A stretch of 64,000 nucleotides of DNA from Methanocaldococcus infernus ME (GTDB lineage: Archaea; AGJL01; Methanococci; Methanococcales; Methanocaldococcaceae), in assembly GCF_000092305.1 (NCBI RefSeq), contig NC_014122.1, forward strand, positions 496,001 to 560,000, written 5' to 3'. Every line of letters starts with the position of its first letter. Within the stretch, counting starts at the first letter, position 1. The notes beneath the pieces were generated by a model, which did no database searches, was not told the origin of the DNA, and saw nothing but the letters and a program-made list of their open reading frames with translations. The position numbers and the translations under genes were made by a program. Of the stretch, positions 36,734-47,689 are shown piece by piece.

Positions 36734-37059
36734 GGCGTGCATGGCTAGGCCGGGGGGTTGGGCGTCCCCTGTAACCCGAAATCGTCCTCATGCGGGGGCC
36801 GAAAACCTGGGGGCGGCTTGTCAGCCGTAGCTCTCCCCCTGAGCCAACCGATGACGTCTCGTCCCATGGGGCTCGACGGTGGGGGAGCACCTTCCGGAGG
36901 GAAGGTGTAACCCCCTTTACCTGCCGAACCCCGCCAGGCCCGGAAGGGAGCAACGGTAGGCAGGACGTCGGCGCTCATGGGGTTGAGCGGGGCTGAGGTT
37001 TGGCTCAGGGATAAGAGGGCTACGGCTGGCAAGTCCACCCCAGGGAAGCCATGCACGCC
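36734..37059 (+). ncRNA. ffs: 7S signal recognition particle RNA
   Basis: A GC-rich island of about 326 nt in an AT-rich genome. The ends GGCGTGCATGGC and GCCATGCACGCC pair to form the closing helix of archaeal SRP RNA. The SRP54-binding helix 8 has the near-universal CCAGGCCCGGAAGGGAGCAA, and the Alu-domain start GGCCGGGGGGTTGGGCGTCC is present. SRP RNA with SRP19 and SRP54 brings signal-peptide proteins to SecY. A T-run at 37064-37069 probably ends the transcript. Confidence 0.95.
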
Positions 37060-42873: not shown

Positions 42874-42930
42874 GGCTCAGCTGCGGGAGTAGTCATCACA
42901 GATCAGATAGCGAAATTTTCATCATCGCCA
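42874..42930 (-). ncRNA. C/D box methylation guide RNA
   Basis: On the minus strand, in order: box C GATGATGA, a 12-nt guide AAATTTCGCTAT, box D' CTGA, a short link, box C' TGTGATGA, a 12-nt guide CTACTCCCGCAG, and box D CTGA. Spacing and box sequences are those of archaeal C/D sRNAs bound by L7Ae, Nop5 and fibrillarin. The D' guide is complementary to the conserved 23S rRNA segment UAGCGAAAUU; by the +5 rule it would direct 2'-O-methylation at the C matching E. coli C1934. The D guide's target was not identified. It lies in the pth2 leader, 25 nt before the ATG. Confidence 0.85.
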
Positions 42931-46600: not shown

Positions 46601-47617
46601 ATGAAGTTAACTGAGATGGTTAAGCTACATGGTTGAGCCTGTAAGCTCCCCAGTGCTGAGCTTGAGGTTTTGGTTAAGGATATTGTCAAAGATGAAGATT
46701 TAAAACATTGCCTTGTTGGCTTGGGAGATGATGCAGCTGTGATAAAAAAGGAAAACTTGGTTATAGCTAAAACTGTTGATGTCTTTACCCCAATAGTTGA
46801 TGATCCCTACATACAAGGAAAGATAGCAGCTTGTAACTCAACAAATGACATTTATGCTATGGGGTTAAGGGAGATAATAGGGGTTCTTGCTATAGTTGGA
46901 ATTCCTGAGAAGCTATCTTTAAGTGTGGCTAAAGAGATGTTAAGGGGATTCCAAGACTTTTGTAGGGAAATAGGGACTTCAATAGTTGGAGGGCATACAA
47001 TACTAAACCCATGGCCCCTAATTGGTGGCTCTGTAACTGGGGTTGGAAAAGAGGAAGAAGTATTAACAAAAGCTGGAGCTAAGGTTGGAGATGTTTTAAT
47101 ACTAACTAAGCCTCTTGGCACTCAGAGTGCCATGGCTTTAAGTAGGGTTCCAAAGGAATTTTTAGAGCTAATAAATATTTCAGAGGAGGAGAAGGAAGAG
47201 ATAATAAATAAAGCTATAAAATTAATGACAACCTCAAACAAGTATAGCTTAGAAGCTTTGAGAAGAGCTGAGGAGAAAGTTGGAGATAAAATAGCTAATG
47301 CTCTAACAGATGTTACTGGCTTTGGGTTACTTGGACATAGTAATGAGATAGCTAAGCAAAGTAAGGTTAATATAAAAATTGATACTCTCCCTTGTATAAA
47401 GAAGACTCCAGAACTTAGTAAGATGTTTGGCCATGCCCTACTTGAAGGTTATGGTGCTGAAACTGCTGGAGGTTTATTAATTGTGGCTAAGAGAGAATAT
47501 AAAGATGAGCTAATTGATGAGCTAAAAAAAGTTGGCTATGCCTTTGAAGTTGGAGAAGTTGTAGGAAGAGGAGATAAAGCAACTCTCTCAAAAGACCTAA
47601 AAATTATAGAAGTTTAA
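46601..47617 (+). CDS. selD: Selenide, water dikinase, itself a selenoprotein (UGA-Sec at codon 12)
   Basis: Reading from the ATG at 46601 (after GGTGATAAGG) gives MKLTEMVKLHG, then TGA at 46634-46636, then ACKLPSAELEVLVKDIV. The GxACKLP context with Sec in place of the catalytic Cys is the well-known SelD active site, so TGA is read as selenocysteine; a conventional caller would start too late, near 46670. Downstream, GLGDDAAVIKK, DVFTPIVDDP and NALTDVTGFGLLGH are the ATP-binding motifs of the family. Length is 338 residues. SelD makes selenophosphate for Sec and selenouridine. An archaeal SECIS lies in the 3' UTR, and an 18-nt sequence at 46646-46663 pairs with 47616-47633. Confidence 0.95.
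46646..46663 (+). repeat. 5' strand of long-range complementary pair in selD mRNA
   Basis: The 18 bases CTCCCCAGTGCTGAGCTT encode codons 16-21 of SelD, beginning 9 nt after the UGA. They are the exact reverse complement of 47616-47633, about 950 nt away, with a possible G-U pair added at 46664/47615. Confidence 0.9.
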
Positions 47618-47633
47618 GCTCAGCACTGGGGAG
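47616..47633 (+). repeat. 3' strand of long-range complementary pair in selD mRNA
   Basis: AAGCTCAGCACTGGGGAG begins on the last two bases of the selD stop codon and runs into the 3' UTR, ending 19 nt before the SECIS. It is perfectly complementary to 46646-46663. Confidence 0.9.
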
Positions 47634-47652
47634 AAAATTTTAAAATGTTGAA

Positions 47653-47689
47653 GGGCATGCCGAACCACTTTTTAAGTGGAGGCATGCCC
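47653..47689 (+). promoter_or_regulatory. Archaeal SECIS element of selD
   Basis: A 37-nt stem-loop: lower stem GGGCATGCC (47653-47661) with GGCATGCCC (47681-47689), the conserved asymmetric loop GAA opposite A (47662-47664 and 47680), then the upper stem CCACTT/AAGTGG with a TTTA loop. This is the archaeal 3'-UTR SECIS consensus. Its right side (47672-47689) is also the coding end of the convergent gene. Confidence 0.93.

Follow-up and report, generated by a model that had tools for sequence, protein, structure and literature searches.

A covarying long-range helix predicted to tether the 3'-UTR SECIS of selD to its UGA-Sec codon in hyperthermophilic Methanococcales, and a candidate trans-acting form serving hdrA and fwuB

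Introduction

In the closest system described, fdhA1, the SECIS lies in the 5' UTR and is bordered by flanks of 7 and 10 nt that are complementary to the ORF, are longer in thermophilic genera, and are predicted to put the SECIS 43 nt 3' of the UGA, according to the accessible part of the report (Peiter & Rother 2025, PMC11881835). When complementary flanks were added to a Methanococcus maripaludis reporter, activity was unchanged and mRNA was three-fold lower, with two-fold activity per mRNA, a modest effect. The same portion of that report names the sps (selD) SECIS as the most effective one in the M. maripaludis reporter, and states that no SECIS-binding factor is known in archaea (PMC11881835). 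The canonical euryarchaeal 3'-UTR SECIS is described as free of stringent distance constraints, and in M. maripaludis reporters untethered 3' SECIS elements functioned at distances of 520-679 nt, as far as the accessible text goes (PMC9622424). Plant RNA viruses provide a more distant likeness, in that the long-distance readthrough elements of tombusviruses (PMC3234231, accessible part) and luteoviruses likewise use a distal 3' element that pairs near the recoded stop; these act in near-cognate readthrough and involve no SECIS, SelB or Sec-tRNA, and we claim no homology with selD.

The selD locus of Methanocaldococcus infernus resembles fdhA1 in that a UTR stretch beside the SECIS complements the ORF downstream of the UGA, with greater complementarity in hyperthermophiles. 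The two differ in that the selD SECIS lies 3' of the stop codon rather than in the 5' UTR, and in that both SECIS flanks pair in fdhA1 as described in the accessible text, whereas in selD only the arm 5' of the SECIS does so, in a helix that starts 9 nt after the UGA. Split flanks of the fdhA1 type were considered for selD and rejected, the 3' flank of its SECIS having only scattered matches of 5-11 nt. With the canonical 3'-UTR SECIS the selD hairpin shares the GAA/A motif, the GC clamps and the 3'-UTR site, to which it adds a pairing arm. Thus, selD is a 3'-SECIS, single-arm form of the tethering known from fdhA1, and not the first case. The preliminary description of this DNA had known of no report of such a bridge; this stands only in part in view of the fdhA1 5'-UTR flanks published in 2025, but we found no mention of the selD, fwuB and hdrA tethers, or of the trans form described below, in the accessible text of PMC11881835 or in other open-access PMC literature.

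Results

Layout of the selD locus and significance of its complementarity

The window is the whole 64-kb stretch of M. infernus DNA that was analyzed, and its genome, pieced together from shorter stretches (G000; 1,328,194 bp, 1,343 ORFs), served as the control set. Features of the selD locus, all on the + strand and in window coordinates, are as follows.

46601..47617, +, ORF of selD (selenophosphate synthetase) with in-frame UGA; ATG at 46601; above the TIGR00476 cut-off, with one internal TGA
46634..46636, +, UGA-Sec codon of selD, codon 12, in the context LHGUACKLP
46646..46663, +, 5' arm of the putative tether helix, CTCCCCAGTGCTGAGCTT, encoding LPSAEL and beginning 9 nt after the UGA
47615..47617, +, stop codon TAA, whose last two bases belong to the 3' arm
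47616..47633, +, 3' arm of the putative tether helix, AAGCTCAGCACTGGGGAG, which reverse-complements 46646-46663 without a mismatch, with covariation
47634..47652, +, linker of 19 nt from the 3' arm to the SECIS, of widely differing length among species
47653..47689, +, SECIS hairpin in the 3' UTR, with GAA/A kink-turn-like motif (as defined in PMC11881835) and GC clamps

Recomputing the positions of the UGA, both arms, the linker and the SECIS returned the values first given for them. The hairpin follows the layout GGGCATGCC-GAA-CCAC...GTGG-A-GGCATGCCC, and has the two stems flanking a GAA/A internal motif and the G-C clamps by which a euryarchaeal SECIS is recognized. The LHGU.CKLP context is conserved in all Methanococcales selD genes examined. 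Two structured RNAs also lie in the window, an archaeal SRP RNA (RF01857) at 36738-37055 (+) and the C/D box sRNA sR39 (RF01122) at 42875-42929 (−).

The 18-mer of the arm occurs in only two copies in the 64-kb window, with an expectation of 0.02 even when 3 mismatches are allowed. When the 1,343 control ORFs were scored for complementarity of the 5' coding region to the ORF's own 3' UTR, the maximum was 13 nt, compared with 18 nt in selD; over 4,000 random pairs the same statistic likewise peaked at 13 nt. The 18-mer search and the ORF control exclude a chance origin of the match, bearing out the initial assertion that it lies far beyond chance.

An unconstrained fold of the full selD mRNA predicts all 18 helix pairs at 37 °C, with a mean pair probability of 0.98, and 17 of the 18 at 85 °C, where the mean is 0.93, so that the computational fold proposed as a check of the pairing returns the helix at both temperatures. 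The predicted duplex energy of the selD helix at 85 °C is −13.9 kcal/mol, within the range of −12.6 to −17.5 kcal/mol predicted for hyperthermophile helices at that temperature; an 11-nt mesophile helix is predicted at −16.7 kcal/mol at 37 °C and at only −3.8 kcal/mol at 85 °C. These modeled energies are consistent with a helix length tuned to growth temperature.

Compensatory evolution of the selD helix

A search of 31 genomes yielded 30 selD loci with the UGA. Perfect complementarity of 17-22 nt was observed in 13/13 Methanocaldococcaceae loci and in 2/2 loci of a second hyperthermophile genus, g3, probably Methanotorris. In these 15 loci the 5' segment begins 9-13 nt after the U of the UGA and its partner lies between the stop codon and the SECIS. 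No helix above background was found in any of the 15 selD loci sampled from other Methanococcales genera (g2, g4 and g5), which confines the selD tether to two hyperthermophile genera among the Methanococcales loci examined. The stop-to-SECIS distance is 45-129 nt in loci with the arm; in arm-less loci it is mostly 4-23 nt, with one of 54 nt and three in which the SECIS was not located. The loci retrieved from Methanopyri and Asgard archaea, several of them partial or lacking a clear stop, contained no convincing selD tether.

Amongst the 14 distinct selD sequences, 98% of alignment cells are paired; 7 of the 18 pairs have changed on both sides, 9 are invariant, and none shows a one-sided change. 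None of 500 shuffles matched the observed paired fraction, the number of double changes or the covariation score. The signal disappeared when one strand was offset from the other by 1-3 columns. The 5' arm of G000 matches its own 3' arm along 18 nt, against no more than 9 nt for the 3' arm of any other species. While the 3' arm shifts position relative to the stop and the SECIS from species to species, the coding segment that it pairs with never changes. An alignment of selD orthologues had been suggested as a check, with a lack of covariation counting against the helix; what we observe is that 15 orthologues retain the pairing through compensatory changes. A reading of the repeat as a DNA-protein operator is ruled out, given that the arms vary in concert and hold no fixed motif.

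The same arrangement in fwuB and hdrA

Comparison with other selenoprotein genes reveals the same arrangement in fwuB, including two paralogues, and in hdrA. The gene fwuB, encoding the Sec-containing subunit B of formylmethanofuran dehydrogenase, pairs with the stretch directly 5' of its SECIS, in a helix that starts 26-33 nt after the U of the UGA and whose length depends on the genus: 25-26 nt in g3, 18-19 nt in the genus of the window, 12-21 nt in g2 and 14-16 nt in g5, with 9-11 nt in the Methanococcus-like genus g4 as against 16-26 nt in the hyperthermophile genera. Among thermophiles as a whole, most fwuB helices measure 14-26 nt and one measures 12 nt. A second Sec fwuB paralogue shows 16-19 nt of complementarity in five genomes, and hdrA has a cis helix of 20-29 nt in several genera. 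The fwuB arm mirrors coding changes in its own ORF, such that exchanging arms between loci shortens the match from 21 to at most 13 nt (L312), from 16 to at most 8 nt (L354) and from 26 to at most 11 nt (L350); at L353 and L311, foreign arms pair equally well or better. No tether pairing was found in vhuU and vhuD, where the UGA lies near the gene's own SECIS.

In selD, fwuB and hdrA the topology is constant: the arm lies 5' of the SECIS and the helix starts at least about 9 nt past the UGA. This geometry brings the SECIS out of the helix at its UGA-proximal end. The earlier proposal that a selected long-range pairing places the SECIS at this end thus finds support in the 15 selD loci, in their compensatory changes and in the recurrence in fwuB and hdrA.

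The start positions bear on whether the helix might instead be a local stimulator at the mRNA entry site, as in viral readthrough signals, acting regardless of where the SECIS lies. The selD helix and the trans hdrA helix described below do begin about 7-10 nt after the UGA codon, and selD, at 9 nt, falls within the fixed 5-9 nt spacing of readthrough stimulators. The cis helices of fwuB and hdrA fail this spacing, beginning 26-38 nt after the U of the UGA and thus outside any entry-site register, and the 3' strand always adjoins the SECIS, which together make a purely local stimulator decidedly unlikely. The entry-site role first suggested for the helix is accordingly less well supported: the 9-nt spacing is no rule, although no conserved helix starts much closer than that.

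We also considered whether the 3' arm acts as an antisense repressor, stopping elongation past the UGA, with the SECIS incidental to it. An 18-nt antisense stretch within an ORF could stall ribosomes; however, the arm is kept in several energy-metabolism genes with the order of arm then SECIS unchanged, and the fwuB 3' arm is missing exactly where the fwuB 3' SECIS is missing, in G000, G002 and G003. We regard such a repressor as very improbable.

A candidate guide RNA carrying a SECIS

The regions downstream of the UGA in G000 hdrA and fwuB, searched for complements genome-wide, gave best matches that coincide, at 356,195 (22 nt, hdrA) and 356,212 (18 nt, fwuB). Both fall within one element, here given in genome coordinates.

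356185..356288 of contig C1 of G000, outside the window, candidate guide element (L367, of the set L365-L378) with guides, SECIS and T-run

In G000 the guides are followed directly by the SECIS and the T-run, and the element lies downstream of a ksgA-like gene, past a gene on the opposite strand. Comparable elements make up a candidate RNA gene of roughly 100 nt, composed of an hdrA guide, an fwuB guide and a SECIS, in 13/14 Methanocaldococcaceae genomes; it is absent from 22/22 other Methanococcales, and the one Methanocaldococcaceae genome that lacks it, G004, is 86% complete. The hdrA guide, of 21-23 nt, forms a predicted helix beginning some 10 nt past the U of the UGA, together with a second helix of 7 bp, and the fwuB guide measures 17-19 nt. 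In most genomes the element follows fwuB and doubles there as the fwuB 3' arm and SECIS. In G002 it lies 442 kb from both targets, between two opposite-strand genes, and in G003 a separate contig carries it. The G008 copy lies at about 1,137,153-1,137,256 of contig C1.

In G000, G002 and G003, hdrA and fwuB retain the UGA without a recognizable SECIS of their own (in G000, UGA at 345,478 for hdrA and at 351,415 for fwuB). The 750-769 kb region of G002 contains only the vhuD and vhuU SECIS elements, and no SECIS was found in the 11 kb around G003 fwuB. One remaining alternative is that hdrA and fwuB of G000 and G002 share a polycistronic mRNA with vhuD/vhuU and rely on the SECIS of the latter, which would leave G003 fwuB, on a different contig from vhuD/vhuU, unexplained.

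A TATA-like box stands about 30 nt upstream of a conserved GGGGTGGGCG in most genomes. Rfam holds no family for the guide element. Minimum free energy folds of the guide region vary among species, and we therefore claim no conserved fold beyond the SECIS.

Covariation between unlinked loci and decay of the hdrA cis SECIS

Guide and target have changed together. In G000, hdrA reads CCCCGAAG...GCGTCGC and the guide GCGACGC...CTTCGGGG, where other genomes have AAAG and GTTGC against GCAAC and CTTTGG; the second, 7-bp hdrA helix is CCACCCA/TGGGTGG in G000, from CCACCCC/GGGGTGG. For fwuB, GATTCAGG in G003 faces CCTGAATC in the guide, where others have GATGTAGG facing CCTACATC, and G000 pairs GGACGTAGG with CCTACGTCC. 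Double changes number 3 pairs for hdrA and 4 for fwuB, reached by 0 of 500 shuffles for either target, and they come from few genomes (G000, G002 and G003), hence few independent events, joining loci that are unlinked.

These changes also bear on whether the inverted repeats are functionless and maintained by copying from arm to arm, through template switching or gene conversion. The perfect Watson-Crick identity in selD and its lack of one-sided changes are what such copying would leave. Against it, all species pair through one and the same coding segment even as the 3' arm changes place with respect to the stop and SECIS, helix ends do show some G-U pairs and mismatches, and the concerted changes in hdrA and fwuB connect loci that are separated by 442 kb or sit on different contigs; we consider copying between arms scarcely credible.

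The hdrA cis SECIS is intact in some species and degraded in others. It has been lost in G000, G002, G003, G004 and G011, with a plain hairpin in its stead (L396 in G011, L389 in G002), and G008 and G001 have a degraded cis arm. The trans guide is perfect in all hdrA genomes with a lost or degraded cis form where the element was found, which is the pattern predicted by takeover by a trans RNA. The Rfam flpD RNA (RF01737) matches the hdrA 3'-UTR hairpin beside vhuD/flpD, that is, the region of the hdrA cis SECIS (L381, G008); RF01737 is a cis element, and the stand-alone guide matches no Rfam family.

Taken with the unlinked covariation, this makes it likely that a SECIS can act in trans, with the guide RNA carrying the recoding signal to the hdrA and fwuB mRNAs and the selD tether being the cis form. 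Independent transcription of the small RNA and its action in trans are what we infer from this pattern.

Discussion

Building on complementarity, its conservation, compensatory evolution, constant topology and predicted stability, we consider it quite likely that the selD arms form an intramolecular helix holding the 3'-UTR SECIS next to the UGA-Sec codon; its formation in cells and its stimulation of Sec insertion are our inference. The recurrence in fwuB and hdrA, the trend of helix length across genera, the lack of such pairing in vhuU and vhuD and the published fdhA1 analogue, with its doubled activity per mRNA, also speak for the tether. In the mechanism we propose, the helix would loop out the reading frame, and its presence would be compatible with the UGA in the A site since it begins at or past the mRNA entry point. 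Lying 3' of the arm, the SECIS would exit at the UGA-proximal end of the helix and stay near the ribosome, which would raise the local concentration of the SECIS, its binding factor and SelB-GTP-Sec-tRNA, and the ribosome would unwind the helix while moving on. Helices in hyperthermophiles would be long, GC-rich and fully Watson-Crick because shorter ones would melt. On this proposal, selD would be one case of a Methanococcales system for genes in which UGA and SECIS are at least about 1 kb apart, comprising selD, fwuB and hdrA, and fdhA1 by publication.

Several observations count against the tether. Translating ribosomes must melt the helix repeatedly, the G000 3' arm overlaps the stop codon, the selD helix, unusually for RNA, contains no G-U intermediates, and the flanks added to the fdhA1-type reporter did not change its total activity (PMC11881835, accessible part). 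The accompanying three-fold fall in reporter mRNA would also suit a helix that forms and mainly controls mRNA stability, circularization or translation level, for instance in selenium-dependent feedback on selD, rather than Sec insertion, as would the finding, in the accessible text of PMC9622424, that a 3' SECIS needs no tether at 37 °C. Such a role is nonetheless unlikely, as the helix is found in selenoprotein genes with a distant UGA, beside the SECIS and always just past the UGA, with no comparable case among the 1,343 control ORFs, and as the trans element couples the guides to a SECIS. We thus favor the tether as an aid to Sec insertion and not as a universal requirement, because a 3' SECIS at 520-679 nt can do its work untethered (PMC9622424, accessible part). 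The broader suggestion that such a bridge explains how archaeal 3' SECIS elements act in general is not supported in that form, given this untethered function and the 15 helix-less selD loci of g2, g4 and g5.

The covarying tether in selD, fwuB and hdrA offers a concrete physical answer to how a SECIS in the UTR could act on a UGA roughly 1 kb from it. Should the trans RNA function in the way its covariation implies, a base-pairing guide RNA would determine what a stop codon means. That would be a new kind of recoding, and the RNA might offer a programmable means of inserting selenocysteine at chosen sites.

A separate observation concerns a Sec fwuB paralogue whose ORF contains a SECIS-like GAA/A hairpin, tattgggGAACCAATCCTATGGActcaatg, 97 nt after the UGA. 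The hairpin occurs at L304, L306, L357 and L361, in the Methanococcus-like genus, and at L317, loci where no 3'-UTR SECIS of the paralogue was detected, and judged by its sequence it is possibly a coding-region archaeal SECIS.
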